A DNA stretch of 35,617 nt from Clostridiales bacterium DTU086 (lineage in GTDB: Bacteria > Bacillota > DTU086). Positions 573-32,542 of this stretch are shown piece by piece. The number at the start of each line of letters is the position of its first letter. Within the stretch, counting starts at the first letter, position 1. The stretch lies in NCBI GenBank assembly GCA_001513335.1, contig LFTO01000236.1, positions 1 to 35,617 of the forward strand, given 5' to 3'. Under the pieces are notes generated by a model. It did no database searches and was not told the DNA's origin. It saw nothing but the letters and a program-made list of their open reading frames with translations. The position numbers and the translations under genes were made by a program.

Positions 573-743
573 GGCTGCGGGATAGTTCCCACTTAAGTAT
601 TTTCAATAAAGGAACGCAAGGAAAAAATCTTTTAGGTAACAAACCGCAGTTGGACAGGACTCTGGAGAGATCCGGTTAACGGACACCGAAGGAGCAACTT
701 TCCCTTGCACTGGGAAAGGAATCTCTCAGGTAAAAGGACAGAG
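573..743 (+). promoter_or_regulatory. glycine riboswitch, one canonical aptamer preceded by a decayed one
   Basis: The 3' aptamer (about 656-743) has the glycine-aptamer core: GGAGAG at 664-669, ACACCGAAGGAGCAA in the middle, and CTCTCAGG near 723 followed by AAAAGGACAGAG. Its P1 pairs CTCTG (660-664) with CAGAG (739-743). Upstream, a second P1 pairs CTGCGG (574-579) with CCGCAG (645-650), followed by a typical inter-aptamer linker, but the inner core is degenerate (GATAG and CTTTTAGGTAAC in place of GAGAG and CTCTCAGG). It therefore looks like a tandem riboswitch whose first aptamer has decayed, or a singlet with a partner stem. Glycine binding is expected to turn on gcvT-gcvPB expression. 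Confidence 0.9.
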
Positions 744-790
744 GATAGGTGGGAAAAGAACCTCCCATTTATCACCTCGTCCTTTTGTTT
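732..790 (+). terminator. riboswitch-controlled terminator (expression platform)
   Basis: AAAAGGACAGAGG (732-744) can pair with CCTCGTCCTTTT (775-786), with an inner GGTGGGA/TCCCA helix, and the stem runs straight into a T-rich tract. The 5' arm contains the CAGAG that closes P1 of the glycine aptamer, so aptamer and terminator are mutually exclusive. The expected logic is that bound glycine keeps P1 closed and permits read-through into gcvT. Confidence 0.85.
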
Positions 791-862
791 TAGCCGGCGG
801 TGGTATCCGGGTTTTTATCGGGTACACTAAAAGCGGGCCATTCCGAAATGGAGGTGTAAACA

Positions 863-1978
863 TTGAGCGAAGATGACAAGTGCCTGAAACGGACTCCACT
901 CTACGATATCCATATAGAGAATGGAGGGAAAATGGTTGACTTCGGAGGTTGGGAGCTGCCTATCCAGTATTCAGGAATAATCAACGAACACAAAACCGTA
1001 CGTGAAGCGGCGGGACTCTTCGATGTATCCCATATGGGAGAAATACTGGTTTACGGCGAACAGGCCCTGGACCTTTTACAGGAACTGGTAACAAATGACG
1101 TATCTCTTGTAGAAATAAACCAGGTGCAGTATACACCCATGTGTAATGATGATGGGGGAATTATTGACGACCTTATCATTTACCGGTTGGCTGCGGACAA
1201 ATTTATGCTGGTGGTAAACGCAGCCAATACGGAAAAAGACTACAACAGGGTCTGTGAAGTCAGCCGTGATTTTCCAGGTGCGGAAATTTCCAATGTTTCC
1301 TGGGACACTGCCCTGATCGCCATCCAGGGCCCCCTTGCCTGCAAAATCCTTTCCCGGGAATGCGATCAGGATATAGAAGCCATAAAGTACTTCAGGTTTT
1401 TACCGGAAGTAACTGTCTGCGGAGAGCAGGCCCTTGTATCCCGAACCGGTTATACAGGAGAAGACGGCTTTGAAATCTACTGCAGCAGGGAAAGCGCACC
1501 AATAATCTGGAAAGGTTTAGCCAAGCAGGGCGCCGAATACAATTTAGTTCCCGCAGGTCTGGGTGCCAGGGACACTCTCAGGTTTGAAGCATGCCTTCCC
1601 CTCTACGGGAATGAGCTGGATGAGGATACCAATCCCCTGGAGGCCGGTTTGACTCCCTTTGTAAAGCTTTACAAACCTTCTTTCCGTGGCAAAGAGAACC
1701 TAACACGGGTAAAACATGAAGGCCTAAAAAGGCGTTTGGTAGGACTTGAGGTAACGGGAAGAGGTATCCCCAGACACGGTTACCCGGTACTTCACGGATC
1801 TGTCGTTGTAGGAAAGATTACCAGCGGGACTTACGCACCTACCCTGGATAAAAATCTGGGACTGGCTTACGTCGCTGTTGATTGTTCTGAACCGGGAACA
1901 AATTTGTTTATTGATATTCGCAGGCGAAAAGTAGAAGCCCGTGTAGTCTCAATCCCATTTTATAAAAGGAGGCGTTAG
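863..1978 (+). CDS. gcvT: glycine cleavage system T protein (aminomethyltransferase)
   Basis: Transfers the methylene group of the aminomethyl-lipoyl arm of H protein to tetrahydrofolate, releasing ammonia. The 371 residues match the usual GcvT length. Recognisable blocks are MVDFGGWELPIQY near residue 25, DVSHMGE near 55, RTGYTGEDGFEI near 195 and GLGARDTLRFEACLPLYG near 230, followed by the C-terminal barrel. The start is TTG, 6 nt after GGAGGTG; the ATG at 848 is followed in frame by a stop. It is the first gene behind the glycine riboswitch, and gcvH begins 2 bases after its stop, so the genes are probably translated together. Confidence 0.97.
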   Translation: MSEDDKCLKRTPLYDIHIENGGKMVDFGGWELPIQYSGIINEHKTVREAAGLFDVSHMGEILVYGEQALDLLQELVTNDVSLVEINQVQYTPMCNDDGGIIDDLIIYRLAADKFMLVVNAANTEKDYNRVCEVSRDFPGAEISNVSWDTALIAIQGPLACKILSRECDQDIEAIKYFRFLPEVTVCGEQALVSRTGYTGEDGFEIYCSRESAPIIWKGLAKQGAEYNLVPAGLGARDTLRFEACLPLYGNELDEDTNPLEAGLTPFVKLYKPSFRGKENLTRVKHEGLKRRLVGLEVTGRGIPRHGYPVLHGSVVVGKITSGTYAPTLDKNLGLAYVAVDCSEPGTNLFIDIRRRKVEARVVSIPFYKRRR

Positions 1979-1980
1979 TT

Positions 1981-2352
1981 ATGAATCCAAGTGAATTGAA
2001 GTACACAGAAACCCACGAATGGCTGAACCTCGAGGGGAATAAATGTACCGTGGGCATTACCGACCACGCTCAGGAACAGCTGGGAGATATCGTCTTCGTG
2101 GAACTGCCGGAAGAAGGGGCGGAGCTGAGCAAGGGAGATGTGCTGGGAAATATTGAATCGGTAAAAAGTGTTTCTGAAGTCTATACTCCCGTATCTGGAA
2201 GGGTAATAGAGGTAAATGAGAAACTTCTCGATAACCCTGAACTGGTAAATCAGGACCCCTTCGGGGAAGGCTGGATTGCCAAATTGGAATTAACGGACAC
2301 CGACAGCCTCGGTGAACTGCTCACTGCAGAAGAATACCGGAGTAAACTATAG
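1981..2352 (+). CDS. gcvH: glycine cleavage system H protein (lipoyl carrier)
   Basis: Shuttles the aminomethyl group between P, T and L proteins on a lipoyl arm. The 123-residue protein has the hammerhead fold signature: THEW near the N-terminus, GITDHAQEQLGDIVFVELPEEG, and the modification site ESVKSVSEVYTP with the acceptor lysine at residue 62. A ribosome site (AGGAGGCG) lies at the end of gcvT. As the only lipoyl-domain protein in the window, it is the natural substrate for the octanoyltransferase and radical SAM proteins further down the operon. Confidence 0.97.
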   Translation: MNPSELKYTETHEWLNLEGNKCTVGITDHAQEQLGDIVFVELPEEGAELSKGDVLGNIESVKSVSEVYTPVSGRVIEVNEKLLDNPELVNQDPFGEGWIAKLELTDTDSLGELLTAEEYRSKL

Positions 2353-2373
2353 CGGCCCAGGGAGGGAGCAACT

Positions 2374-3720
2374 ATGCGGTACTTGCCCAATACTGAGCAG
2401 GAAAGGCAGGCAATGCTGGCCAGCCTTGGCATACAAACAACAGAAGAACTCTTTAAGGATATCCCTGAAGAGGTAAAGTTGAAAGAAACGCCGGACATTC
2501 CCCATCCTTTATCGGAGCTGGAAGTCAAGGTGCACATGCAGAAGCTGGCCCAAAAAAACAGATCATTAAATGAACTTGTGTCCTTTTTAGGAGGAGGCTT
2601 CTACGACCATTATATTCCCAGTGCTGTAAACTACATAATCAGCAGGGGTGAATTCCTTACTGCCTATACTCCCTACCAGGCGGAAATAAGCCAGGGGACA
2701 CTCCAGTCTATTTACGAATTTCAGACAATGATTGCACAGCTGACAGGTATGGATATAGCCAACGCATCCATGTATGACGGGGCAACGGCCCTGGCCGAAG
2801 CAGCCCTGATGGCTGCTGCCCATGGAAGAAAACGGAATAACATAGTTGTTTCCTCAGCTGTAAACCCACTTTACCTGCAGGTACTTTCTTCCTACTTGCG
2901 GGGAAGAGCGGACCTGGAAATCCGCTATATTCCCGTCCGAAACGGAATTACAGGCACCTCAGACTTTGAACAGGTAATTGATGAGAACACTGCTGCCGTT
3001 CTGCTCCAGCAGCCCAACTTTTTCGGGTGCCTGGAGCAGGGAGCTGATATTGCTGAAATTGCCCACAAACACGGGGCAAAACTGGTTGTGTGTGCTGACC
3101 CTATTTCACTGGGCATTTTAAGTGCCCCCGGGGATTATGGAGCAGACATTGTAGTAGGTGAAGGGCAATCTTTGGGGAACGCCCCCTATTTCGGCGGCCC
3201 CGGATTAGGCTTTTTTGCCGCCCGTGAAGAATTCCTGCGCAGCATGCCCGGTAGAATAGTGGGAGCTACTGTGGATACCCAGGGGAAGCGGGGCTTTACC
3301 CTTACCCTGCAGACCCGGGAACAGCATATCCGGCGGGAGAAGGCAACTTCCAACATTTGTTCCAATCAAGCCCTTAACGCCCTTGCTGCATCTATATATA
3401 TGGCGTTAATGGGAAAGCAGGGCCTTGCTGAAACTGCAGAACTCTGTCTTCAAAAGGCTCACTACGCTGAGGAGAAAATTTCCTCTCTACCCGGCTATTC
3501 AAGGGCTTTCCCTGCCCCTTTCCTCAAGGAATTTACGGTAAAATGTCCCGTTCCTGCCGCCAAAGTGGTGGAGAGACTCCTTGACAGAGGATTCCTGGCA
3601 GGTATCGACCTGGGTAAATATTACCCCAACATGAAGGACTACCTGCTGGTTGCAGTTACAGAAAAGAGAACGAAAGAAGAAATCGACTGCTTTGCAGAGC
3701 AATTGGAGGGGATAAAATGA
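2374..3720 (+). CDS. gcvPA: glycine dehydrogenase (decarboxylating) subunit 1
   Basis: N-terminal half of the split P protein (448 residues). It pairs with the PLP-bearing subunit 2 to decarboxylate glycine and load the remainder onto lipoyl-H protein. Typical blocks are [13 protein letters not shown] at the start, [58 protein letters not shown] and [10 protein letters not shown]. This half has the aminotransferase-like fold but no PLP lysine, as expected. ATG follows GGGAGGGAG. Its stop overlaps the gcvPB start by 4 bases (ATGA), so the two subunits are likely translationally coupled. Confidence 0.97.
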
Positions 3721-5174
3721 GAGAACACACTGAACCGCTGCTCTTTGAACTAAGCAGAACGGGGCGGACAGGGCACTCTCTGCCTGAGCTGGATGTGCCC
3801 CAAAAACCTTACGAGGAGATGCTGCCGGAAGATGTTCTCCGGAAAAATCCCCCGGAACTGCCTGAATTGAGCGAGCCCGATGTTGTCCGCCATTATACAA
3901 AGTTATCCCAGCTCAACCATGCAGTTGATACGGGCTTTTACCCCCTGGGGTCCTGTACCATGAAGTACAATCCGAGAATCAATGAAGAAGTGTCCCAGCT
4001 GCCTGGATTTTCACAGCTGCACCCCCTGCAGCCGGTGCAGACTGTGCAAGGCGCTTTGGAGCTCCTGTTCAACATGGAAAAGTTTTTATGTGAGCTCAGC
4101 GGTATGACCCGTTTTACTTTCCAACCCGCTGCAGGAGCCCATGGTGAGTTCACAGGACTGTCCTTGATAAGGGCTTACCACAGCCACAAGGGTGACACCG
4201 GCAGAAACAAGATAATAATCCCTGACTCGGCACACGGTACCAACCCGGCATCGGTGGCCATGGCAGGATACAAAACTGTTCAGGTCAAGTCCAACGACAG
4301 AGGCGGGATTGATCTTGAGCACTTGAGAGAAATAGCTGATAATACCACAGCCGGACTGATGCTGACCAATCCCAACACCCTGGGCATTTTCGATGAAAAC
4401 ATTACTCAAATAGCTGAGATAGTACACAATGCAGGGGGACTCCTGTATTATGACGGGGCCAACGCCAATGCCATTATGGGTATTTCCCGCCCCGCAGATA
4501 TGGGATTTGACATTGTACACTTCAACCTGCATAAGACTTTCTCCACTCCTCACGGAGGAGGGGGACCCGGTTCCGGTCCTGTTGGAGTAGTTGAAAAACT
4601 GGTTCCCTTCCTGCCCGTACCTGTGGTGGAGAAGAAAGACAACAGTTACTATCTCGATTATGACCGGCCTGAATCCATCGGGAAAATTCACTCTTTCTAC
4701 GGCAATTTCGGTGTCATAATCAAGGCCTATGCCTACATCCTTTCCATGGGAATGGAAGGACTGCGCCGGGCAAGCGAGGAGGCAGTCTTAAACGCCAACT
4801 ACCTGATGCGTGCCCTGGCGAAATATTTCCATCTCCCCTACGACCGGACGTGTATGCATGAATTTGTTCTCTCCGGCAGTAAGCAGAAAGAACTGGGGAT
4901 CCGTACCCTGGACATGGCAAAAAGGCTTCCTGATTTCGGCTTCCATCCGCCCACTGTCTACTTCCCGCTGATAGTGGAAGAAGCAATGATGATTGAACCG
5001 ACGGAAACAGAGAGCAAGGAAACCCTGGATGCCTTTATTGAAGCCATGAAGCAGATTGCCCGGGAAGCGGAAGAAAACCCGGATATGCTCAAAAATGCCC
5101 CTCATACAACTCCGGTAAGACGCCTGGATGAAACCCGGGCAGCAAGGCAGCCCGATCTGCGCTGGCGGCCATAA
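3717..5174 (+). CDS. gcvPB: glycine dehydrogenase (decarboxylating) subunit 2, PLP-binding
   Basis: Catalytic C-terminal half of the split P protein (485 residues). The PLP Schiff-base lysine is K273 in [20 protein letters not shown]; upstream are [24 protein letters not shown] and [16 protein letters not shown]. The C-terminus ([19 protein letters not shown]) is typical of the family, so the gene is complete. An inverted-repeat element begins within a few bases of the stop. Together with gcvPA it forms the active P protein, as in Bacillus and other Bacillota, in contrast to the single-chain GcvP of Proteobacteria. Confidence 0.97.
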
Positions 5175-5179
5175 CGGGG

Positions 5180-5240
5180 GCAGGGGCTGCCGCCGCTAAC
5201 GGCGTGGGAGCTTGTCCGTAGCAGAATAATACATGCGGGC
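5180..5240 (+). repeat. dispersed inverted-repeat element, copy A (right part only)
   Basis: Carries the GC-rich core and right end of the family. Bases 5197-5222 are identical (26 bp) to the reverse complement of 9755-9780, and match 23187-23212 with one mismatch. The end GCGGGCTTTA resembles the right end of the other copies. No left terminal repeat is visible; that side is occupied by the end of gcvPB. It sits between gcvPB and the first radical SAM gene and would be part of the operon transcript. Confidence 0.75.
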
Positions 5241-5272
5241 TTTAACTTAAAGTGCTTGTTACAGGTGAAATT

Positions 5273-6199
5273 ATGCTGAGTATAACTCAAGCCAATAAAT
5301 CAATTTCAGATTCCCTTTATTTGCCTCGGGAGACAAAGTCACTCATGGAACAGGCATGGGAAATCCGCACTGCCAATTTTCCCATGGAAATTTCCACAGT
5401 CACCCCGATAAAAACCGGCTCAGTCTCAGTCACAGGCACCGACTGTGCTCTGAACTGTGCCCACTGCGGGAAGCACTACCTCAAGGGAATGATGACCCTG
5501 GATGCAGTCCTTTCGGGAGAGGACAGGTCAAAGTATACAAGCTACCTTATCAGCGGCGGCTGTACAAGTCAGGGGAAAGTGCCTCTCCTTCCGCACCGGG
5601 AACAGCTGAGGCAGTTAAAAAAAAGCGCCCGTTTGAACCTCCATACAGGGCCGATTGACCGGGAAGAAGCCCGCTCCCTGGATGAAGTCGCAGATGCAGT
5701 ATCTTTCGACTTTGTCTGCAGCAGGGAAATCCTCCAAAAGGTATACGGACTTGACAAAAATGTTTCCGACTACTTGGAAAGCTACCGGGCTCTGATAGAG
5801 TGTTTGGGCATCCAACGGATAATCCCTCATATTACCATAGGTTTAGCCCAAGGGCAGGTTACTCACGAAGTAGAAGCTACGGAACTTCTTGCCGCAGAGG
5901 GAATCAGCAGACTGGTGATTTTGGTCTTTATACCTACACGGGGTACAGGCTTCCAAAGGATACCTGCTCCAAACCTGGCGGAAACAGCTGCTGCAATTGC
6001 CCGGATTCGCGCTCTCATTCCCAGAACGCCTATTTTCCTGGGATGCATGCGACCCGGGGGAGTGTACAGACAGCAGCTGGATCTTTTGGCTTTACGGTGC
6101 GGAATCAACAAAATAGTCCAGCCGGCTCCCAATATTTACACTGCCGCCTGTGAATTGGGGCTGGAGGTAAAAACCGAAAAGGAATGCTGTGCCCTATGA
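5273..6199 (+). CDS. radical SAM protein, LipS-type lipoyl synthase subunit (COG1856-like)
   Basis: A 308-residue radical SAM protein. The cluster motif is CALNCAHC (C58, C62, C65; CX3CX2C). Further cysteines occur in SGGCTSQG, FLGCMRPGG and at the very C-terminus (ECCAL), which could serve an auxiliary Fe-S cluster. I chose ATG 5273 because AGGTGA lies 4 nt before it; GTG 5252 would add 7 residues without a good site. It is followed by a second radical SAM gene with a 4-base overlap and then by LipM and Lpd genes. That arrangement matches the LipS1/LipS2 pair known from Thermococcus and some bacteria, which together insert both sulfurs into octanoyl-protein. I cannot say which of the two names belongs to which gene. 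Assignment rests on context plus family memory. Confidence 0.8.
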   Translation: MLSITQANKSISDSLYLPRETKSLMEQAWEIRTANFPMEISTVTPIKTGSVSVTGTDCALNCAHCGKHYLKGMMTLDAVLSGEDRSKYTSYLISGGCTSQGKVPLLPHREQLRQLKKSARLNLHTGPIDREEARSLDEVADAVSFDFVCSREILQKVYGLDKNVSDYLESYRALIECLGIQRIIPHITIGLAQGQVTHEVEATELLAAEGISRLVILVFIPTRGTGFQRIPAPNLAETAAAIARIRALIPRTPIFLGCMRPGGVYRQQLDLLALRCGINKIVQPAPNIYTAACELGLEVKTEKECCAL

Positions 6200-7167
6200 T
6201 ACGATTGTCCACAGGAACTGCCGCCCTTCTGAAAATGGCAAATTGTATTTCCAAAGTCCCGCCAACCACAGCATACATGATGGCCGGCCAGAAATGTGAA
6301 AACAACTGCAGATTCTGCTCCCAGGCACGGGACAGTTCCAGTAAAGCTTCCCTCTTATCCAGAGTAACGTGGCCTGATTTCCCCCTGGAGGAAACTGTGG
6401 ATGCTGTGGCTGCGGCATACAAAAAAGGAAACATAAGACGGGTATGCATACAGATAGTCAGCTGTCGGGAGAGCCGCGGGAACCTTTCCCGGCCGGTAAA
6501 AATGATTAAAGACAGGGTACCGGAAATTCCCTTAAGCATATCGGCAGCCTTTACCTCTCTGGAGGATATCCGGCATTTCCTTGATTTAGGTGCAGATGTT
6601 GTTAATCTTTCCCTGGACGGGGCATCTCGTCCAGTCTTTGAAAATATGAAACAGAAATCCTGGGACAGGGCATGGTCCTTTCTGAAAAAAGCTTCCCATG
6701 AATTCCCGGGGCACATCAGCACCCATATCATAGCTGGTTTGGGAGAAAGGGAGAGAGATATTGTAGAGTCTGTACAGAAATGCAAAGACCTGGGGATAGG
6801 CACCGGTTTGTTCGCCTTTACTCCAATTAAGGGAACCCCCTTGGAGTCAACCCCCCAGCCTCCACTGGTTTCCTACAGGAGACTCCAGGCAGCCAGGTAC
6901 CTGATTATGAACCGGTATGCCCGTGCAGAACAGTTCTCTTTTAATACAACAGGATTCCTCACCGGGTTTGGAATGGGCTCCCTGGAATTGATAGAAATCC
7001 TTGGAAACGGGAAAGCATTCGAAACATCCGGCTGCCAGGGCTGCAACAGGCCCTACTATAACGAAAGCCCCCGGCAGATACCTTATAATTATCCACGGCC
7101 GTTGACCAGGGAAGAGATAGAAAAAGCAGTGGCAGCTGTCATTGAGGGAACCAGGGTTTTCAGCTGA
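6196..7167 (+). CDS. radical SAM protein, LipS-type lipoyl synthase subunit (biotin synthase-like, COG2516-like)
   Basis: A 323-residue radical SAM enzyme resembling biotin synthase-related proteins. The motif is CENNCRFCSQAR (C34, C38, C41); downstream come SLDGASRPVF and a Gly-rich GLGERERDI, plus a C-terminal pair in SGCQGCNRPYYNESP that might bind an extra cluster. ATG 6196 overlaps the preceding TGA (ATGA); an in-frame ATG at 6184 is possible but has its ribosome site too close. Biotin synthase is unlikely because no other biotin gene is near. As one half of a LipS1/LipS2 pair it would convert the octanoyl group on GcvH to lipoyl. Confidence is high for radical SAM and moderate for the substrate. 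Confidence 0.8.
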   Translation: MIRLSTGTAALLKMANCISKVPPTTAYMMAGQKCENNCRFCSQARDSSSKASLLSRVTWPDFPLEETVDAVAAAYKKGNIRRVCIQIVSCRESRGNLSRPVKMIKDRVPEIPLSISAAFTSLEDIRHFLDLGADVVNLSLDGASRPVFENMKQKSWDRAWSFLKKASHEFPGHISTHIIAGLGERERDIVESVQKCKDLGIGTGLFAFTPIKGTPLESTPQPPLVSYRRLQAARYLIMNRYARAEQFSFNTTGFLTGFGMGSLELIEILGNGKAFETSGCQGCNRPYYNESPRQIPYNYPRPLTREEIEKAVAAVIEGTRVFS

Positions 7168-7357
7168 AAACACCGGAAAAGAAGAAGTATTCCAATGTTA
7201 TCACTGGTCCGGAGCCGCCAACACGGAATTGTAAACCTATATCCAACAGGTATCTGCCGGCAATTGTAAACAGCTCTACATATCCCGGCAGGCTGTGCAA
7301 CCCCTTAAAAAACGTGCCCAGCAGGTTATGTAAAACCTTAAAAAAAGGAGGCTTTGA

Positions 7358-8227
7358 ATGCAGGGAACAGATTTAGCAAAGGAAGGCCGCGCCTGGCGGC
7401 TTTTGGTGGATACACCGGCAGGAGGCGCCTATAATATGGCAGTGGATGAAGCCATACTCTTATCCCATGCCAGGGAGGAGGTACCTCCCACCCTTCGCCT
7501 GTACCAATGGAACCCCCCTGCTGTGTCCGCAGGTTTTTCCCAGGATATATTAAAGAAAATAGACCTGGAACAGTGCAGGGAACTGGGCATAGACGTAGTA
7601 CGACGGCCTACCGGGGGCAGAGCCGTGCTGCACGATAAGGAAATTACATACAGTGTCACTATATCCCTTTCTCTCCTTCCCGGAAGTATACTGGAAACGT
7701 ACAGGTTCATCAGCCGCGGCCTGGTGGAAGCCGTTAACCAGCTTGGACTTAGGGCGGAAGTTGAGGACAGGCCGGAAAAGTCAAGAAATCCCGGCTCAGC
7801 AGCATGTTTTGACTCCCCTTCCTGGTACGAAATTGAGGTATCCGGGCGCAAATTGGTAGGGAGTGCCCAAACCAGGCAGAAAGGAGTCCTTCTCCAGCAC
7901 GGCTCGGTACTGTTAGAGCTGGACACAGCCAGGATGCAGCAGGTCCTGTCAGCACCTAATGAAAAGGTGCGCCAGCGCATCGCCTCCGCACTGGAAGAGA
8001 GGGCAACAGCTGTCAACCCAGAACTTATACGCATGGGGAAAGAGCCGGTGCAGCCCGACGCAGTCGAGAAGGCCTTAATTGAAGGATTCAGCCGGGGGCT
8101 TGGCATCACCCTTACCCCATCCGCCTTAACAGAAAAGGAAAGGATACTTGCGGAACACCTTGTCAAAACAAAGTACAGCGCACCAAACTGGAATTTTTAT
8201 AGAAAGGAAGTGGGGCAACATGTATGA
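7358..8227 (+). CDS. lipM: octanoyl-[ACP]:protein N-octanoyltransferase, LipM type
   Basis: Transfers octanoate from acyl carrier protein to the lysine of lipoyl domains, chiefly GcvH. The 289 residues include the biotin/lipoate ligase-fold signatures RRPTGGRAVLHDKEITYSV (about 82-100) and SGRKLVGSAQTR (162-173, K165). The LipM hallmark is a cysteine at position 150 in AACFDSPSWYE, the same place as the catalytic Cys of Bacillus subtilis LipM; simple lipoate ligases lack it. A strong AAAAGGAGG site precedes ATG. The 190-base gap upstream holds a 7-bp stem (CTGCCGG...CCGGCAG, 7252-7291 region) and a repeated AATTGTAAAC but no clear promoter. It supplies the octanoyl-protein substrate for the two radical SAM proteins. 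Confidence 0.88.
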   Translation: MQGTDLAKEGRAWRLLVDTPAGGAYNMAVDEAILLSHAREEVPPTLRLYQWNPPAVSAGFSQDILKKIDLEQCRELGIDVVRRPTGGRAVLHDKEITYSVTISLSLLPGSILETYRFISRGLVEAVNQLGLRAEVEDRPEKSRNPGSAACFDSPSWYEIEVSGRKLVGSAQTRQKGVLLQHGSVLLELDTARMQQVLSAPNEKVRQRIASALEERATAVNPELIRMGKEPVQPDAVEKALIEGFSRGLGITLTPSALTEKERILAEHLVKTKYSAPNWNFYRKEVGQHV

Positions 8228-9623
8228 CTTAATTGTTATTGGAGCCGGACCAGGAGGTTACCACGCAGCCATCCACGCGGCTCAGGAAGGACTGAAAACA
8301 GCCCTAATTGAAAAAAACCGCCTGGGCGGGGTTTGCCTGCAGGAAGGCTGCATCCCTACAAAAAGCCTGGTTCACAGCGCAGAAGTATTAAGAACATGCC
8401 GTGATGCCCACTTATTTGGTGTTGAGATAGAAAAATCCAGCGTTAACTGGCATGCCGTCCAAAAACACAAGGAAAAAGTTGTAGACCAGCTTACAAAAGG
8501 GCTGGAACAGCTAATGCCTGCCAACGGAGTTGAGGTACTATACGGTAAGGCCGCCCTTACGGAAAAAAGTGCAGGCCCTGAAAAGGAAGTGGCTGTCCAA
8601 TTAAATGACGGCGCACGGACAACCCTTACGACAAGAAACATAATTATCGCCACGGGTTCTTCCCCTTCCCTGCCCCCTATTCCCGGGATTGATCTCCCGG
8701 GGGTTATCGGGAGCCGTGAAGCCCTGGAACTGACTTCTGTGCTGGAAAAACTCCTTATCATTGGCGGCGGCGTTATCGGTGTTGAATTTGCCTCTATTTA
8801 CAGCGCTTTTGGCAGTGCCGTAACAATTGTAGAATTTCTGCCGAAAATACTTTCTTCTATGGATGGGGAAATAGCCAAACGAATGGAAGCAGAGTTAAGA
8901 CGCAACAGGATAAAGATTCTGACCGGGAGCCGAGTAAAGGAAATCAGAGAAGCAGATAAGATACTTGAAGCTGTAATTGAAAAAGGAGACAAAGAGGAAA
9001 TTATCCCAGCAGATACTATTCTCATTGCCACCGGGAGAAAGCCCAGCGTCCAGGGTCTGGGACTGGAATATACGGGAATCGAGTATGCTGAAAATTCAGG
9101 GATACAGGTTAACAGTTTGATGGAGACAAACATAGAAGGCATTTATGCCATCGGTGATGTAACGGGGAACTACCTGTTGGCCCATGTTGCTTCCGCTGAG
9201 GGAATCACGGCAGTAGACAATATTCTGGGAAAGAAGCGGGAGATGAACTATAAAGCGGTACCCAATGCTATTTACACCCACCCGGAGGCAGCAGGGGTCG
9301 GGCTTACCGAGGAGGAAGCCAGAGAACAAGGCATTGCCTATAAGGCAACAAAGTTTATGTTTAGTGGGAACAGCAGGGCAGTCACCATGGGTGAGAACCG
9401 GGGTTTGATAAAACTTATCACCACGGTACCAGAAAATACCGTAGTTGGAGCTCACATTATCGGCCCTAACGCCAGCGAATTAATTCAGGAACTGGTTCTG
9501 GCAGTGAACACTTCCGCAACAGCAGAGGATATAAGCCGCACCATACACGCCCACCCCACTCTCTCGGAAGCTTTGATGGAAACTGCACAAGGTGTATCAG
9601 GACGTTTTACCCATATGCTTTAG
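8220..9623 (+). CDS. lpdA: dihydrolipoamide dehydrogenase (L protein)
   Basis: Reoxidises dihydrolipoyl-H protein with NAD+. The 467 residues run in the usual order: FAD site GAGPGGYHAAIHAAQEG, redox-active disulfide GGVCLQEGCIPTK (C39, C44), NAD site IIGGGVIGVEFASI, second FAD motif GIYAIGDV, and the catalytic interface HAHPTLSEA near the C-terminus. ATG 8220 overlaps the lipM stop by 8 bases and follows GGAAG; an upstream in-frame TTG at 8148 would overlap lipM by 80 bases and precede the conserved MYDLIVIG start, so it was rejected. It is the last gene of the block and completes the four-protein system. Confidence 0.96.
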   Translation: MYDLIVIGAGPGGYHAAIHAAQEGLKTALIEKNRLGGVCLQEGCIPTKSLVHSAEVLRTCRDAHLFGVEIEKSSVNWHAVQKHKEKVVDQLTKGLEQLMPANGVEVLYGKAALTEKSAGPEKEVAVQLNDGARTTLTTRNIIIATGSSPSLPPIPGIDLPGVIGSREALELTSVLEKLLIIGGGVIGVEFASIYSAFGSAVTIVEFLPKILSSMDGEIAKRMEAELRRNRIKILTGSRVKEIREADKILEAVIEKGDKEEIIPADTILIATGRKPSVQGLGLEYTGIEYAENSGIQVNSLMETNIEGIYAIGDVTGNYLLAHVASAEGITAVDNILGKKREMNYKAVPNAIYTHPEAAGVGLTEEEAREQGIAYKATKFMFSGNSRAVTMGENRGLIKLITTVPENTVVGAHIIGPNASELIQELVLAVNTSATAEDISRTIHAHPTLSEALMETAQGVSGRFTHML

Positions 9624-16118: not shown

Positions 16119-16355
16119 TTGGGTTTCTCCTCAAAGATTTCTAGTCAAGTTTTCAGTAAATATCTGTCTTAAATCAGGAAATAATACTTGTCTTCTGATT
16201 ATATCACTCTCAACACCTGATTGTGGTTGTCATCTACTCTCCTGCCAAAAGTACAGTATGAGCCTCTCAGAAGAATGTTATGCCTGCCGAAAGGGGTGGA
16301 ATAGATACTGCCCATCTTGAAAATAATAACTTTATACGGAGGTGTAATTAACCCC

Positions 16356-17324
16356 TTGAGAAGAATTCCAAGAAAATCAACCCCGGAAAAAATAGGAGTT
16401 CAGGCTGCCTATACAGTTTGGCGCAGTCTTGTAGACAGGTACGTTTTTATTGAGCATTTCAACAAATTGAAGAATTATACCCATGACCGGGATTTTCTCT
16501 TCCTCCTTACAAATTTAATCAACGACTTTAAAGAAGAAGCGAACCGATTGGAGGAATTGTGCCAAAATTTTTATATACAATCGCCGCAGCCCAGTTCCAG
16601 GGATACAACAGCGACAGGCCATTCCGAAGTTTTGTCTGACAGAGACACTGCGGAAGTTGTTTACCGTTTCTTAAGACTTGACCTGAATATTTTACTCCTG
16701 GGATTGAAAAACTCCCACACAAATGACAGCGTAAAAGAATTTGCGATAAATCTTGTTAACAAAGCCATCAACCGGGTAGATAAATTCATTAAATATATAA
16801 AGTTTAAGGATTGGCTGGAGATCCCTCCTTTATACCCTAACGTAAACCCGGAAGTAAGAGAACAGTTGGCTGTTAACAAGGTGTATTTGCTCTATGACCA
16901 TTTAATATTCAGATATAACAATATCCACCAGACTAGAATTTTTTCTTCCTTTGTTTCCGATACTGACTTTAAGGCTTTGTTGGATGTGGGTACCAGGGTG
17001 TTGGAAAAACAAGTGAAAACCCTGGAGGAGAAGCTTCTCTACTACGGAATTACACTGCCTAAACCTTATCCCTTTAACACTCCTGTACCGGAGAATAAAC
17101 AGGCTTTGCAAGACAGATTTATGTACAACACAATCTTCCGCGGGATACAAGATGCTGTAGTTTTGCACGGCACTGCTATTAGTGAAATTATCGTAAATGA
17201 TGGATTAAGAAAGATGTTCATTGAGTTAACCCTTGATGAACTCAGCATGATGGATAAAATGGACAAGTACGGAAAATTGAAAGGCTGGGTATTTGTAGTC
17301 CCATCTTTTAAAGGGGGTACATAG
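16356..17324 (+). CDS. DUF3231-like protein, two related halves
   Basis: A 322-residue helical protein resembling the DUF3231 family of spore-forming Bacillota, whose function is unknown. The two halves look related: LVDRYVFIEHFNKLKNYTHDRDFLFLLTNLINDF against LLYDHLIFRYNNIHQTRIFSSFVSDTDFKALLD, and KYIKFKDWLEIPPLYPN against DKYGKLKGWVFVVPSFK. There are no membrane segments. I chose TTG 16356 because GGAGGTG (16338-16344) precedes it; TTG 16317 would add 13 residues but has no suitable site. A truncated relative lies at 33467-33778. Ferritin-like or spore-coat roles have been suggested for similar proteins; nothing here decides. Confidence 0.75.
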   Translation: MRRIPRKSTPEKIGVQAAYTVWRSLVDRYVFIEHFNKLKNYTHDRDFLFLLTNLINDFKEEANRLEELCQNFYIQSPQPSSRDTTATGHSEVLSDRDTAEVVYRFLRLDLNILLLGLKNSHTNDSVKEFAINLVNKAINRVDKFIKYIKFKDWLEIPPLYPNVNPEVREQLAVNKVYLLYDHLIFRYNNIHQTRIFSSFVSDTDFKALLDVGTRVLEKQVKTLEEKLLYYGITLPKPYPFNTPVPENKQALQDRFMYNTIFRGIQDAVVLHGTAISEIIVNDGLRKMFIELTLDELSMMDKMDKYGKLKGWVFVVPSFKGGT

Positions 17325-24949: not shown

Positions 24950-25330
24950 TTACGAAGCCCTGCGGCTTTCTCTCTCCTGATAATCTTTGATAGCTGCATG
25001 AAGGGCGTCCGCAGCAAGATTGGAACAGTGCATCTTAATGGGCGGCAGCCCATCAAGAGCTTCCGCAACAGCTTTATTGGTTACCTCCAGGGCTTCCTCC
25101 ACAGTCTTTCCCTTCACCAATTCCGTAACCATGCTGCTTGTGGCAATTGCTGCTCCGCACCCAAAGGTCTTAAACTTTATATCCTTAATAATGTTATCCT
25201 CTATTTTAAGATAAATGCGCATTATATCCCCGCAGGAAGCATTACCGACTTCACCAATACCGCTGGCATTTTCTATCTCCCCAACATTTCTGGGGTTTGT
25301 GAAATGGTCCATTACTTTGTCCGAGTACAT
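24950..25330 (-). CDS. nifU: Fe-S cluster assembly scaffold, NifU N-terminal/IscU type
   Basis: A 126-residue scaffold on which Fe-S clusters are built from sulfur delivered by NifS. The three conserved cysteines are C33 (NASCGDIM, with Asp35), C58 (FGCGAAIATSSM) and C102 (MHCSNLAADAL). It has only the IscU-like domain, without the C-terminal NifU thioredoxin-like domain. ATG follows AGGAGTGTGAGGG and overlaps the end of nifS by 19 bases, so both are one transcript. This is the usual minimal NifS-NifU pair of clostridia and would serve the many Fe-S proteins here (radical SAM, IorA). Confidence 0.95.
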   Translation of the reverse strand: MYSDKVMDHFTNPRNVGEIENASGIGEVGNASCGDIMRIYLKIEDNIIKDIKFKTFGCGAAIATSSMVTELVKGKTVEEALEVTNKAVAEALDGLPPIKMHCSNLAADALHAAIKDYQERESRRAS

Positions 25331-26508
25331 CCCTCACACTCCTTTCGGCTCTTCTGATACAAAGGAGACATATCCCGGAGGCGCTGTACAATCTCCGGCA
25401 GCACATCCAGCACATAATCAATCTGCTCTCCGGTATTGTCCCTGCCTAGGGTCATTCTTACAGAACCATGGGCGACTTCCTTACATATCCCCATGGCCAG
25501 AAGTACGTGGGAGGGATCAAGGGAGCCGGAAGTACATGCTGAACCGCTGGATGCGGCAATACCTTTCATATCCAGGGAAAGGAGCAGGGACTCCCCTTCC
25601 ACATATTCAAAACTCACGTTAACATTTGTGGGAACCCTCAGAGTAGGATGACCGTTAAGCCTTACGTCAGGAATCCTTTCCAAAATGCCCTTGATAAGTT
25701 TATCTCTCAATTGGGTCATCCGCGGCATTTCAGAATCCATTTCCTGTCCGGCCAACTCCACAGCCTTCCCCAACCCTACAATACCCGGCATGTTTTCCGT
25801 ACCCGGCCTGATTTTCTTCTCCTGAGCACCTCCAAAAACCAGGGGCGAAAGATGGACCCCTTTCCTGATATATAGGAAACCTATGCCCTTGGGACCGTAA
25901 ATCTTGTGGCCGGAACCCGTGAGCAGGTCAGCATTCATCTCCTCCACGTCAACAGGAATTTTTCCCAGTGACTGGACTGCATCAGTGTGAAACAAAATCC
26001 CTTTTTCCTTGGCCAGGCGGCCAATCTCAGCAACAGGCTGGATACTCCCTACCTCGTTATTGGCATGCATAATGGTAATCAAAATGGTATCGTCCCTGAT
26101 AGCCTGGCGTAAGTCATCCATGCGGACAATTCCGTATTCATCTACCGGCAGCACTGTCAGGTCAAACCCCATCTTTTCCAAATGCTCGCATGCATGAAGC
26201 ACGGCATGATGTTCCACGGCCGAAGTTATAATATGCTTTCCCTTGTCGGCATACTTCAAGGCTGTGCCTATAATAGCGAGGTTGTCAGCCTCTGTCCCGC
26301 CGCTGGTAAAGGTTATTTCCTCAGGTTGGGCTTTGATTAACGCGGCCACCTGGCTCCTGGCATTTTCCAAAGCTTCTTTGGCTTCCCTGCCAAAGGAATG
26401 GACACTGGAGGGGTTGCCGAATTTGTTTGTCATATACTCCATCATGATTTCGGCTACCTCAGGTCTTACAGGAGTAGTAGCGCTGTGGTCAAGATAGATC
26501 CTCTGCAT
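25312..26508 (-). CDS. nifS: cysteine desulfurase NifS
   Basis: Removes sulfur from cysteine as an enzyme persulfide for Fe-S assembly. The 398 residues hold YLDHSATTPVRPEV at the start, FTSGGTEADNLAI, HHAVLHACEHL, the PLP lysine K202 in GSGHKIYGPKG, and the persulfide cysteine C325 in SSGSACTSGSLDPSHVL. The active-site loop is of the group I (NifS/IscS) type. The tail CEGCTRTK adds two cysteines beyond the usual end. ATG after GGAGA. It is first in the operon, divergent from the Rrf2 regulator gene across a 549-base region with a strong promoter on each side. Confidence 0.96.
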   Translation of the reverse strand: MQRIYLDHSATTPVRPEVAEIMMEYMTNKFGNPSSVHSFGREAKEALENARSQVAALIKAQPEEITFTSGGTEADNLAIIGTALKYADKGKHIITSAVEHHAVLHACEHLEKMGFDLTVLPVDEYGIVRMDDLRQAIRDDTILITIMHANNEVGSIQPVAEIGRLAKEKGILFHTDAVQSLGKIPVDVEEMNADLLTGSGHKIYGPKGIGFLYIRKGVHLSPLVFGGAQEKKIRPGTENMPGIVGLGKAVELAGQEMDSEMPRMTQLRDKLIKGILERIPDVRLNGHPTLRVPTNVNVSFEYVEGESLLLSLDMKGIAASSGSACTSGSLDPSHVLLAMGICKEVAHGSVRMTLGRDNTGEQIDYVLDVLPEIVQRLRDMSPLYQKSRKECEGCTRTK

Positions 26509-26550
26509 ACTGGAAGTCTCCTTTGCTCTATAGATTTAATCCCTACCATT

Positions 26551-26558
26551 CTTATCGG
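26551..26558. promoter_or_regulatory. candidate Rrf2/IscR operator half-site at nifS
   Basis: CTTATCGG on the plus strand lies just downstream of the nifS -10. The same 8-mer is at 27015-27022 behind the -10 of the rrf2 gene, with similar TA-rich sequence to its right (CTTATCGGnnnTAnnT). It is a candidate site for the divergent regulator; only two instances are seen. Confidence 0.4.
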
Positions 26559-26567
26559 ATATACTTT

Positions 26568-26596
26568 AATGTAACGCTCCCGTAAATTTTTGTCAA
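26568..26596 (-). promoter_or_regulatory. nifS promoter
   Basis: On the minus strand a perfect TTGACA (26596-26591) and TACATT (26573-26568) are 17 bp apart. Transcription would start near 26561, about 50 bases before the nifS ATG. Confidence 0.75.
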
Positions 26597-26962
26597 GGTT
26601 TTTTCATAGTATTTTACTAGGAATTAGCCGTGCCGTTTATGGCTACCGGGTTTAATTTACATAATACTAACTTGGAAGAATTTATCTTACCTGCATGGCA
26701 ACTTGATGAACTCTAAAATACCTTATGAGATGTATTTTAGTATTGCCCAAAAGCCCCCAGCCTATGGAGTGAAAATATGATCAGTTCCCGTGACAATGCT
26801 GTCCCGGCAGTAACTGCACTGCGCCCTTTTCCATACCCCGGAAATCCCGGAGACTTTTTTGAAAGGCATCATGTTTCACTATTTTGCCACACTATCATAT
26901 AGGTTCCATCCTGTTGAAAGTGCCAGCGTCTGCCTTTTGCACAGGACAAAAAGGTGACTTCC
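26597..26962. other. intergenic stretch between nifS and the rrf2-like gene
   Basis: No gene is supported. It has a perfect 9-bp inverted repeat CTAAAATAC (26713-26721) with GTATTTTAG (26732-26740), 10-nt loop, and no T-run. The rest is unremarkable. The length is large for two divergent promoters, so a small RNA or decayed gene cannot be excluded. Confidence 0.35.
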
Positions 26963-26992
26963 TTGACACCGGGAAAAATTAGCGGATACAAT
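26963..26992 (+). promoter_or_regulatory. promoter of the Rrf2-family regulator
   Basis: A perfect TTGACA (26963-26968) and TACAAT (26987-26992) with 18-bp spacing, about 66 bases before the start codon. A CTTATCGG motif is at 27015-27022. Confidence 0.75.
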
Positions 26993-27014
26993 AAAGACAG
27001 ATTATAGGATAAAA

Positions 27015-27022
27015 CTTATCGG
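27015..27022. promoter_or_regulatory. candidate Rrf2/IscR operator half-site at rrf2
   Basis: The second copy of CTTATCGG, downstream of the rrf2 promoter and followed by TCTTATCT, matches the site at 26551-26558. It would allow autoregulation together with control of nifS. Confidence 0.4.
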
Positions 27023-27057
27023 TCTTATCTGCTTTACTGGATAAGGAGGAAAGTGAA

Positions 27058-27501
27058 ATGAGGTTTTCCACAAAATCCCGTTACGGCTTGAGAGCCATGA
27101 TTGAACTGGCCCTCCATTACAATGAAGAAGCCCCTGTGTCAGTTAAAACCATTGCTGAACAGCAAGAAATTTCCGAGGCGTACCTGGAACACCTGATGTC
27201 CACTCTGGCAAGAAGACGGCTGGCAAAAAGTGTCAGGGGGGCTCAGGGAGGCTACCTGCTCTCCAGAGACCCGGCCAAAATAAAGGTAGGGGATATAATC
27301 AGGGCCCTGGAAGGAGATATAGTACCTGTTGACTGCGTCAACAAGGAAGACCCTGCAGATTGCGAAAGGTTCGAAAGCTGTGTGTCCAGGATCGTCTGGG
27401 AAAGGGTTCAGGACGCGATAAATGACACCCTGGATTCCTTTACCCTTCAGGACCTGTTAGACAAACTAAGAGCCAGGGGCAAGACCGGCGGCAGTCTCTA
27501 A
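27058..27501 (+). CDS. Rrf2-family regulator, IscR-like
   Basis: A 147-residue winged-helix regulator: MRFSTKSRYGLRAMIELALHYNEEAPVSVKTIAEQQEISEAYLEHLMSTLARRRLAKSVRGAQGGYLLSRDP is the classic Rrf2 N-terminus. Three cysteines (C93, C102, C108; CX8CX5C) lie where IscR binds its cluster, so an Fe-S sensing role is likely; CymR-type members lack them. ATG follows AAGGAGGAAAGTG. Placement divergent from nifS-nifU supports control of Fe-S assembly. A bidirectional terminator follows. Confidence 0.92.
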   Translation: MRFSTKSRYGLRAMIELALHYNEEAPVSVKTIAEQQEISEAYLEHLMSTLARRRLAKSVRGAQGGYLLSRDPAKIKVGDIIRALEGDIVPVDCVNKEDPADCERFESCVSRIVWERVQDAINDTLDSFTLQDLLDKLRARGKTGGSL

Positions 27502-29435: not shown

Positions 29436-30050
29436 TCAATTGCCCACCTGGGACAAAAACTCTTTCCCTCTGTCTATCCCTTCCTCAAAGGCAGCCAAAT
29501 TAATATCCACCGTACGCGGGGGTACTGTTTCTCTTATTGTCTCCCGCCAAGCCTCCAAATCAGAGTCCAGCAGACCCGCCAGAACACCCAAAAGCACTGT
29601 ATTAACCACTTTGGGGCTCCCGCACTTTTTGGCTATTTCCAGGGCATCTATTTCAATGGCACGGGAAACCTTTCCGCGAATTCGTTCCATAGTATCCACA
29701 GGGTATTCCTTACTTCCCGTCAGCACCGGGAGAGGGTAAAGTTCCTGGGAATTGACTATGACGGTCCCCCCTTCCCGGAGGTAATGGAGCCAGCGCAGGG
29801 CTTCCAGCTTTTCAAAAGCCAGGATAAAATCTGCCGTACCCGGTGTAATAGTAGGAGCAAAAACTTCTTTGCCAAAACGCACCTGGGTTACAACGCTCCC
29901 GCCCCGCTGGGCCATACCGTGAATCTCGGAAACCTTAATGTCCAGCCCCCTGCGCATAACCACACCGGCAATTACCCTGCTGGCCAGGATAGTCCCCTGG
30001 CCGCCAACTCCAACGATGAGAATGTTTTTTGTATCAGCAGTATCAACCAC
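29436..30050 (-). CDS. iorB: indolepyruvate ferredoxin oxidoreductase, beta subunit
   Basis: Gamma-type domain subunit (204 residues) of the 2-oxoacid:ferredoxin oxidoreductase that turns aryl pyruvates from aromatic amino acids into aryl-acetyl-CoA. Markers are ILIVGVGGQGTILASRVIAGV at the N-terminus, EIHGMAQRGGSVVTQVRFG, and ADFILAFEKLEALRW. I chose GTG 30050, which has AAAGGTGA before it and overlaps the iorA stop by 8 bases; GTG 30074 would add 8 residues. It forms the enzyme with IorA. Confidence 0.92.
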   Translation of the reverse strand: MVDTADTKNILIVGVGGQGTILASRVIAGVVMRRGLDIKVSEIHGMAQRGGSVVTQVRFGKEVFAPTITPGTADFILAFEKLEALRWLHYLREGGTVIVNSQELYPLPVLTGSKEYPVDTMERIRGKVSRAIEIDALEIAKKCGSPKVVNTVLLGVLAGLLDSDLEAWRETIRETVPPRTVDINLAAFEEGIDRGKEFLSQVGN

Positions 30051-31812
30051 GGGAATCACCTTTACTTTCCTCACTGAGCGTTATAGCCTGCCGGGGACAA
30101 ACCTGGGCGCACATCCCACAGCCGGTACACAACTGGCTGTTGATTTCGGCTACCCCGTCTTTTATGGCTAACGCCGGGCAACCTAACTTGATGCACTTTC
30201 GGCACCCAATGCACCGGGAGTTTACACTATACCCCTTTGAGCGGCTTTTAACAGTAAGGGCACAGGGTCTCCTGGCAATGACCACAGAGGGTTCCTCAAC
30301 AGCCATCTCTTCTTTTAAGACACTGTAGACCGCATCAATATCATAGGCGTCAACAACTCTAACTCTTTCCACTCCCACAGCCCGGGCAATCTGCTCCAGG
30401 TCCACTTTATAAGCAGGACCCCTTTTGGCCGTAAACCCGGTAGCCGGGTTATGCTGGTGGCCGGTCATGGCTGTAATCCCGTTGTCCAGGATAACGGTGG
30501 TAATCGTACCATGGTTATAAACAACGTCCATCAATCCGGTTATCCCGGAATGGAGAAAGGTTGAGTCGCCGATAACGGCTACAGTTTTCCGGGCAAATTC
30601 TTTCCCCTGGGCTTTTTCCATTCCCAGGGCCTTGCCAATGCTTGCCCCCATACACAGGCAGGTATCCATAGCCGACAGAGGAGGGAGAGCTCCCAGGGTG
30701 TAGCACCCGATATCCCCTGTTACCACTGCCCCCAACCTGTTCAGGTTGTAGAACACTCCCCTGTGGGGACACCCCGGGCACAATACCGGAGGGCGTCCGG
30801 GTATAGGCTGTTCCGGTTCGACGGCACCTCCTGAAACCCTTGAGGAAACAGCATTTTCCAACCCCAGGCCTTCACGGATTGTTTCCGTGCTCAGCTCGCC
30901 AAAACGGGTAAACATGTCCTTCCCCTTAACTTCCAAAGACATACCACGTATATGGTCTTCCAGGAGGGGTTCAAGCTCTTCCACCACTACAAGCTCGTCC
31001 ACTTCCCCTGCAAACCGGCGGATCAGCTCTGTAGGAACGGGGTAAGTCATACCCAGTTTCAGCACTGATGCTTCCGGGCAGGCTTCACGGACATACTGGT
31101 AGGCTGCCCCGCAGGTGACAATCCCAAGGTCCCTTCCCCGCAGCTGTATCTCGTTAACCGGTGTGCTGCAGGCGTAATCCTCCAGCCGCACCATCCTTTG
31201 GTGCACTTTGGGGTGCAGTTTACGGGCATGAGCCGGAAGGACAATATATTTTTCAATCTGCCGTTTGTACTCTTTAACTTTTATTTCCTGCCTCTGCCCC
31301 AGGTTAACAGGAGACCTCCCGTGGGCCGTCCTGGTTGTTAAACGGAGCAGGACCGGTGTGTCAAATTCTTCACTGAGAGCAAAAGCCAGGACGACGTAGT
31401 CCTTGCATTCCTGGCTGTTGCTTGGTTCCAGCATGGGGAGCTTGGCAAAGCGGGCATAATACCTGTTGTCCTGTTCATCCTGTGAACTGTGCATTCCCGG
31501 GTCATCAGCAGTGACAATTACCAATCCGCCATTGACTCCCATGTAGGAAGCGGTAAACAGCGGGTCAGCCGCAACGTTTAATCCCACATGCTTCATGGAA
31601 ACCATGCTCCTGGCACCGCCAATAGCAGCGCCTATAGCAACCTCCATAGCCACCTTTTCATTAGGTGACCACTGGGCGTCAACTTCATCGTATTTCGCAA
31701 GGGCTTCAAGTATTTCCGTGCTTGGGGTGCCCGGGTAAGCAGCGGCAAAATGAACTCCCGCCTCATAAGCCCCCCTGGCAACGGCCTCATTTCCTGTTAA
31801 TAATTCAAGCAT
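30043..31812 (-). CDS. iorA: indolepyruvate ferredoxin oxidoreductase, alpha subunit
   Basis: Thiamine-diphosphate subunit (589 residues). The N-terminal pyrimidine-binding domain starts MLELLTGNEAVARGAYEAGVHFAAAYPGTPSTE; the diphosphate domain contains CPGCPHRGVFYNL, GDIGCYTLG and GDSTFLHSGITGL. Residues about 534-573 carry two [4Fe-4S] motifs, CIGCRKCIKLGC and CTGCGMCAQVC. ATG 31812 follows GGGGAG and matches the family start; the frame runs open 38 codons further up without homology. It is a strictly anaerobic enzyme producing reduced ferredoxin during amino acid fermentation, or running in reverse for synthesis. Confidence 0.96.
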   Translation of the reverse strand: MLELLTGNEAVARGAYEAGVHFAAAYPGTPSTEILEALAKYDEVDAQWSPNEKVAMEVAIGAAIGGARSMVSMKHVGLNVAADPLFTASYMGVNGGLVIVTADDPGMHSSQDEQDNRYYARFAKLPMLEPSNSQECKDYVVLAFALSEEFDTPVLLRLTTRTAHGRSPVNLGQRQEIKVKEYKRQIEKYIVLPAHARKLHPKVHQRMVRLEDYACSTPVNEIQLRGRDLGIVTCGAAYQYVREACPEASVLKLGMTYPVPTELIRRFAGEVDELVVVEELEPLLEDHIRGMSLEVKGKDMFTRFGELSTETIREGLGLENAVSSRVSGGAVEPEQPIPGRPPVLCPGCPHRGVFYNLNRLGAVVTGDIGCYTLGALPPLSAMDTCLCMGASIGKALGMEKAQGKEFARKTVAVIGDSTFLHSGITGLMDVVYNHGTITTVILDNGITAMTGHQHNPATGFTAKRGPAYKVDLEQIARAVGVERVRVVDAYDIDAVYSVLKEEMAVEEPSVVIARRPCALTVKSRSKGYSVNSRCIGCRKCIKLGCPALAIKDGVAEINSQLCTGCGMCAQVCPRQAITLSEESKGDSRG

Positions 31813-32542
31813 AATTCTCCCCTTCCCAATCACAAAACCATGTTCTTCACATATACTACAAAACTCCTGGACAGCTGCAAAGCCGCCAGGAATTGAACTC
31901 AAGTAAATAAAGCCTTTCCACTTCACAATGGGATACCAATCCCTTTAACCGGCATTAAAATAAAGTGATACCTATCTTACTTTAACATGAAGCAGCTGAA
32001 GATTAAACAGCTGCAACTTAATTTTTTCTTCCAGCCCTTCCAGCTTTTCAGAATTACAGCAATCCTCTCTTTTCCAAAAGGACTCACGCCGAAATACGAG
32101 TATACAAGCTTATTCTAACCAACGTTCCAGGCGTTGCCTGTTCTCTTCAATAATCCTGCCTGCTTCTTCCAAAGCAGCCTCTACACGCCGGGTACCTGTA
32201 GGGGTTCTTTTTCTGGGGCATAATGCTATAGATTATACTCCATTACCAATGGCTTAAACCCACTGTTTTTTCTCTGCTAATTTTACCATAAAATTTTTGC
32301 GGGTAAAAACAAAACCCTTGTGTAATGAGCCATATTTAGGTAACATGAATTTAACCATGTTTTTTCCCTATACATTATTTCCCCCTGGATTTAATCGAAC
32401 CCGGGAGCTTCCCCGTGCCTTTTTGACTATCCTCATTTTCTTGAACATTTTGTCCAAATATGAAATTGAAAGGCATAATATGGAATAGACAAGAATATCA
32501 ATAAATTAAGAAGAGTCTGACAATTTAGGGGGAGGAACCTTG
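31813..32542. other. long intergenic region upstream of iorA and the stress-protein genes
   Basis: No intact gene is supported. A 7-bp hairpin GCAGCTG/CAGCTGC (31992-31998 with 32008-32014) is followed by a T-rich stretch. A short coding-like remnant lies on the minus strand at 32110-32226. The right half is AT-rich and presumably holds promoters; the frame at 32297-32488 lacks a ribosome site and looks accidental. Confidence 0.4.
32110..32226 (-). pseudogene. possible remnant of a coding sequence (C-terminal helix)
   Basis: Read on the minus strand, about 35 codons before a TAA at 32112-32110 give a protein-like helical stretch (RTPTGTRRVEAALEEAGRII then EENRQRLERWLE). There is no start codon in frame before an upstream stop at about 32231. 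It may be the tail of a lost gene; the identity is unknown. Confidence 0.25.

Follow-up and report, generated by a model that had tools for sequence, protein, structure and literature searches.

In Bacillus subtilis, lipoylation runs as a LipM-GcvH-LipA-LipL relay, in which LipM octanoylates GcvH and sulfuration then takes place on the protein. Sulfur can also be inserted by LipS1 and LipS2, two radical S-adenosylmethionine (SAM) proteins that have already been characterised (Neti, 2022; Tanabe, 2023). In Thermococcus kodakarensis LipS2 acts first and LipS1 second, and 34S data show that the sulfur comes from auxiliary clusters (PMC9585515); mass data from Thioalkalivibrio agree with this order (PMC10332631). 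In the sulfur oxidisers Thioalkalivibrio and Hyphomicrobium, LipS1/S2 belong to the sLpl(AB)-LipS1/S2-LipT pathway (PMC10332631), and LipM has been reported together with LipS1/S2 in ligase-free bacteria, with sulfur insertion into transferase-octanoylated proteins being predicted (PMC10332631). Here we describe a locus of Clostridiales bacterium DTU086, contained in a stretch of 35,617 nucleotides (contig LFTO01000236.1, hereafter the window), which, judging from curated family models, conserved residues and gene linkage, is very probably a riboswitch-headed operon uniting the four glycine-cleavage (gcv) proteins with a LipA-free module dedicated to the lipoylation of GcvH.

With the B. subtilis relay the locus would share octanoylation of GcvH by LipM and sulfuration on the protein, but LipS1/S2 replace LipA, and neither a LipL nor an E2 acceptor is seen. 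As for the LipS1/LipS2 of T. kodakarensis (TK2109/TK2248; PMC9585515), both families are represented, with the same radical SAM motif, auxiliary-ligand set and spacing, and two-step sulfur insertion would be expected; the two T. kodakarensis genes, however, lie more than 130 genes apart, whereas here they overlap inside the gcv operon and adjoin the gene for a Cys-type LipM. The sLpl(AB)-LipS1/S2-LipT pathway (PMC10332631) is alike in that LipS1/S2 are clustered with an acyl-attaching enzyme and a dedicated GcvH-like carrier, but it uses a ligase and LbpA and serves sulfur oxidation, whereas the present locus has Cys-LipM, GcvH, glycine cleavage and lpd; neither lipT, searched for within the cluster, nor a lipoate:protein ligase gene is part of it, lipM and lpd being found instead. 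The LipM/LipS1/S2 genomes of Tanabe et al. (2023), from Synergistota, Thermotogota and Schekmanbacteria, likewise combine the LipM octanoyltransferase with LipS1/S2 and have no ligase. The kind of pathway is known, and the combination of LipM with LipS1/S2 is not unprecedented (PMC10332631), but the main text of Tanabe et al. (2023) describes neither a gcv operon headed by a riboswitch, nor how abundant it is in the phylum, nor the split into two lineages and the fusions set out below. Embedding in a gcv operon, the share of the phylum that shows it, the division between Cys and Cys-less enzymes and the fusions lie outside the main text of the LipS1/S2 papers, though they may stand in the supplements; a literature search of open-access articles, excluding supplements, returned no article on a gcv-lipS1/S2-lipM operon.

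Identities were assigned with NCBIfam curated equivalog models and their cut-offs, which the four Gcv proteins, LipS1, LipS2 and Lpd all pass. The scores of LipS1, LipS2 and Lpd leave no room for a chance match. Every gene of the operon is on the + strand. The proximal genes are gcvT (863..1978), for the aminomethyltransferase or T protein (TIGR00528, 405.7 bits, cut-off 235.9), gcvH (1981..2352), for the lipoyl carrier (TIGR00527, 166.6 bits, cut-off 115.9) with its target lysine K62 (codon 2164-2166) in the motif ESVKSVSE, and gcvPA (2374..3720; NF001696, 653 bits, cut-off 364) and gcvPB (3717..5174; NF003346, 800 bits, cut-off 441), for glycine dehydrogenase subunits 1 and 2. This gcvT-gcvH-gcvPA-gcvPB block (863-5174) is followed by lipS1 (5273..6199; NF053742, 278 bits, cut-off 230, E 8.9e-83) and lipS2 (6196..7167; NF053743, 348.7 bits, cut-off 270, E 2.7e-104), both predicted radical SAM sulfur inserters, then by lipM (7358..8227), for a Cys-type octanoyltransferase, and by lpd (8220..9623; TIGR01350, 544 bits, cut-off 408.8), for dihydrolipoyl dehydrogenase or L protein. 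LipM matches the LplA/B catalytic domain (PF21948, 144.8 bits) and carries C150 (codon 7805-7807) and K165; a domain search of the protein found no match to the ligase C-terminal domain PF10437 (Lip_prot_lig_C), and it is also without the LplB domain. lipS1 starts at ATG 5273 with AGGTG ahead of it, and overlaps lipS2 by four bases (ATGA), the alternative ATG at 6184, which would lengthen lipS2, falling outside the LipS2 model match. A strong GGAGG precedes lipM, and lpd overlaps lipM by 8 bases. Neighbouring genes overlap or lie close together throughout the operon; only lipS1 and lipM are set off on their 5' sides, by gaps of about 100 and 190 bases respectively. The coordinates, the overlap, the identity of the pair as LipS1 and LipS2, and the LipM type with C150 and K165 all bear out the first-pass annotation, which had placed two radical SAM proteins between gcvPB and a LipM-type gene followed by lpd. 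It had not listed the glycine riboswitch aptamer RF00504 (652..751, + strand; 71.9 bits, gathering threshold 32, E 2.7e-13), which Rfam finds in the operon leader, and therefore the transcription unit likely spans about 650-9623 instead of the interval 5273-9623 originally delimited. A promoter/terminator scan around the operon gave results near shuffle expectation and was not used as evidence.

Both radical SAM proteins contain CX3CX2C, at C58/C62/C65 in LipS1 (codons 5444-5467) and C34/C38/C41 in LipS2 (6295-6318), as already noted at first reading. For T. kodakarensis, the ligands of the auxiliary [4Fe-4S] clusters have been mapped to C230, C276, C277 and possibly H159 of LipS1, and to C85, C276, C279 and probably H178 of LipS2 (PMC9585515). 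The matching residues here are H186 (5828-5830), C258 (6044-6046) and C305-C306 (6185-6190) in LipS1, and C84 (6445-6447), H177 (6724-6726), C280 (7033-7035) and C283 (7042-7044) in LipS2. Ligand spacing is nearly identical in LipS1 (H159-C230, 71 residues against 72 here; C230-C276, 46 against 47) and in LipS2 the 93 residues between C85 and H178 equal those between C84 and H177. H186, C258, C305 and C306 are invariant across 78 aligned LipS1 proteins, including both of the lineages discussed below, and among 78 aligned LipS2 proteins C84 and H177 are invariant and C280/C283 are 98-100% conserved (residue numbers in the family alignments are offset at the N-terminus by +7 for LipS1 and +4 for LipS2). 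The cysteines of the two window proteins outside these sites are mostly private. The earlier suggestion that the extra C-terminal cysteine pairs hold an auxiliary cluster is supported, C305-C306 and C280/C283 being ligands of that cluster by family alignment and by spacing; the pairs make up only half of each site, to which C258 and H186 in LipS1 and C84 and H177 in LipS2, missed in that reading, also belong.

From the characterised homologues we infer the reactions, their order and the source of sulfur; octanoyl-acyl carrier protein (ACP) as donor and GcvH as actual substrate are presumed. The glycine riboswitch would control the gcv genes together with their lipoylation enzymes. By analogy with B. 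subtilis LipM, the window's LipM would use C150 as acyl-enzyme nucleophile in transferring octanoate from octanoyl-ACP to K62 of GcvH. LipS2 would then insert sulfur at C8 of octanoyl-GcvH and LipS1, in a second step, at C6, yielding (dihydro)lipoyl-GcvH, each protein drawing sulfur from its own auxiliary [4Fe-4S] cluster, to be rebuilt afterwards, while Lpd would re-oxidise dihydrolipoyl-GcvH in every glycine-cleavage cycle. The claim that the operon is self-sufficient does not hold strictly, because octanoyl-ACP, iron-sulfur (Fe-S) assembly and repair, and electrons would be supplied from elsewhere. About 15 kb downstream (24950-27501) the window contains what appear to be iscU-like and iscS-like genes with a divergent Rrf2/IscR-like regulator, which might supply Fe-S to the sacrificial clusters.

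The host genome (G000; 2.10 Mb in 243 contigs, 98.8% complete) extends the absence of LipA, initially seen in the window, to the whole assembly: a genome-wide search yielded no lipA match above cut-off, the best being LipS2 itself (36 against 310 bits). LipS1 and LipS2 are each represented by a single protein above cut-off, and there is one GcvH. A single LplA/LipM-type protein is encoded, and therefore neither LplA nor LipL is present. The sole other good biotinyl/lipoyl domain (labelled C154) is assigned as a biotin carrier because it has the biotin-type motif EAMKLMNE and its gene lies in a carboxylase operon, next to one for biotin carboxylase. With no lipA, no second ligase or transferase and no other lipoyl carrier in the genome, lipoylation has, as far as gene content can tell, GcvH as its single acceptor and LipM-LipS2-LipS1 as its single route.

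The gcv-lipS1-lipS2-lipM block recurs throughout the phylum. Among 399 sampled genomes, LipS1 (E <= 1e-30) is found in 90, LipA in 134 and GcvPA in 251, with GcvPA present in 86 of the 90 LipS1 genomes. The 251 GcvPA-bearing genomes divide into 71 with LipS1 only, 85 with LipA only, 15 with both and 80 with neither, so that LipS1 and LipA mutually avoid each other (odds ratio 0.20, Fisher p 9e-8, calculated on species that are not independent). Two genomes of the same family that lack gcvPA also lack LipS1. The 80 genomes with neither LipA nor LipS1 at these thresholds may obtain the lipoyl group by salvaging lipoate or in some other way. In a locus survey, a 16-row LipS1 alignment used as query recovered 369 relatives in genome contigs, of which 80 were kept (a single LipS1 protein as query gave no match in the same scan). 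lipS2 lies nearby in 76/80, lipM in 63/80 and lpd in 42/80, and gcvPB or gcvH adjoins lipS1 on the same strand in 67 of the 74 loci with upstream room. The commonest gcv-type order is T-H-PA-PB-S1-S2-M, often with Lpd next. Of 11 named genomes that carry the cluster, 6 are without lipA (Acididesulfobacillus acetoxydans, Desulfofundulus australicus, Desulfosporosinus sp. PR and SRJS8, Natroniella sulfidigena and Candidatus Frackibacter) and 5 have it, with two copies in Pelosinus fermentans JBW45 and Desulfosporosinus metallidurans.

Some loci depart from this order. In L073:6360-10838, from a 99% complete genome (G014) with no GcvPA match at E <= 1e-60, gcvH-lipS1-lipS2-lipM-lpd stands with no gcvT or gcvP nearby, a lipoyl module retained with GcvH alone. 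In two Desulfofundulus loci (L161, L197), gcvH-lipS1-lipS2 lies near lpd and away from gcvP, with no lipM within the stretch; CRISPR type III-like genes seem to come next in L161. L056:1073-5274, L058, L064 and L096:5286-9460 carry, linked to the gcv-lipS cluster, a further GcvPA/GcvPB-like pair that has diverged from that of the window (34-38% identity). In L058 and L064 the pair comes after lpd, in L096 directly before lipS1-lipS2, and an ATP-NAD kinase-like protein accompanies it in L056 and apparently in L096.

LipS1 and LipS2 share one reading frame in two loci (L107, L109), as do LipS2 and LipM in two others (L104, L113); in L101 (G171) a single frame of 607 aa seems to join LipM to a prephenate dehydratase-like domain. 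A second LipS1/S2 lineage, whose membership was assigned by gene neighbourhood, mostly has the order S2-S1, and adjoins GcvH-like proteins, with a Cys-less ligase taking the place of Cys-LipM in every case; in the tree it forms one clade of 17, split with support 1.0 from 53 gcv-type pairs. Seven sampled genomes contain both lineages. Three second-lineage clusters (L112 in G040, L123 in G081, L134 in G126) comprise lipoate ligase, lipA, two GcvH-like proteins, lipS2 and lipS1, the ligase being fused to DUF116 in L112 and sharing one frame of 836 aa with lipA in L134. We consider it possible, though somewhat short of probable, that lipoyl synthesis in the phylum is arranged as carrier-dedicated modules, one LipS1/S2 lineage with Cys-LipM acting on GcvH inside the glycine-cleavage operon and the second lineage with its Cys-less ligase on a GcvH-like carrier, and that in cells with both neither module accepts the carrier of the other, LipM-LipS2-LipS1 working on one carrier as a channelled complex.

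The assignment of LipM as a Cys-dependent octanoyltransferase is supported because the C150 loop tracks the gcv-type relatives and is absent from ligases. C150, which we take to be the equivalent of B. subtilis LipM Cys150, lies in an (A/S)ACFDxPSxYE loop ahead of the conserved K165, and the CFDxPSxYE loop is present in every gcv-type relative and in 0/17 of the ligases tied to the second lineage, which mostly have DIEVxGRKISG in its place. Were LipM instead a lipoate/octanoate:protein ligase of a salvage route in which, on the pattern of the sLpl(AB)-LipS1/S2 pathway, free octanoate is joined to GcvH and LipS1/S2 act on the product, the shared Pfam family and the best solved relatives, the archaeal LplA ligases 3r07 and 2ars, would be accounted for, and sequences of family PF03099 are known to separate the two activities poorly (PMC7253636). 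These solved ligases are without the cysteine loop, however, and with its distribution, the lack of an LplB accessory domain and the absence of a second LplA-type protein from the genome, a ligase is unlikely. Far less likely still is a pair of biotin-synthase-like or other sulfur inserters with another substrate, lying beside gcv by chance. LipS2 does score weakly on the bioB (51 bits) and lipA (36.7 bits) models; a fold search with the AlphaFold models (predicted local distance difference test, pLDDT, 92.4 for LipS1 and 90.2 for LipS2) places LipS1 nearest biotin synthase and LipS2 near biotin synthase and the human lipoyl synthase LIAS; and a PDB sequence search gave no close solved relative for LipS1 and biotin synthases only for LipS2. 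Yet those scores fall far under the cut-offs of 225 and 310, the two proteins pass the LipS1 and LipS2 equivalog cut-offs and retain all the auxiliary ligands, and linkage to gcvH and lipM extends across the phylum, with fusions to LipM. It is equally improbable that an undetected LipA makes the lipoyl group and that LipS1/S2 are redundant: lipA does co-occur in 6 of the 63 gcv-type genomes sampled, but 57 have none, and the completeness of the host genome and the named genomes without lipA argue in the same direction. All three explanations were considered and rejected.

Several points weigh against a LipM-LipS2-LipS1 route serving GcvH. Because the genome is in draft form (243 contigs), an unassembled lipA is conceivable, an objection countered by the 4.5-Mb chromosome record of A. 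acetoxydans, in which the cluster is present and lipA is missing. Tree distances of LipS1, LipS2 and LipM correlate with those of GcvPB (rho 0.48-0.60, above 200 permutations), but the LipS-gcv correlations are only moderate (rho 0.42-0.51), and that of LipS1 with GcvPA (rho 0.42) is below the null maximum of 0.44. The bacterial LipS1 step was inefficient in Escherichia coli (PMC10332631), and in PF03099 sequence cannot prove transferase over ligase activity (PMC7253636).

Elsewhere in the window, 16317-17324 (+) encodes a DUF3231 protein, and 29436-31926 (-) carries probable genes for the beta and alpha subunits of indolepyruvate:ferredoxin oxidoreductase.

With 71 LipS1-only against 85 LipA-only genomes among the GcvPA-bearing ones sampled, a large share of the glycine-cleavage systems of the phylum is probably dependent on LipS1/S2 rather than on LipA. 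The locus offers a minimal test case for GcvH-directed LipS1/S2, with one carrier, one transferase and no LipA, and A. acetoxydans, N. sulfidigena, D. australicus and the two Desulfosporosinus strains, which have the cluster and no lipA match, could serve as isolates in which to model it. The operon also bears on the proposal of Braakman and Smith, as cited in PMC7253636, that lipoylation was originally confined to GcvH.

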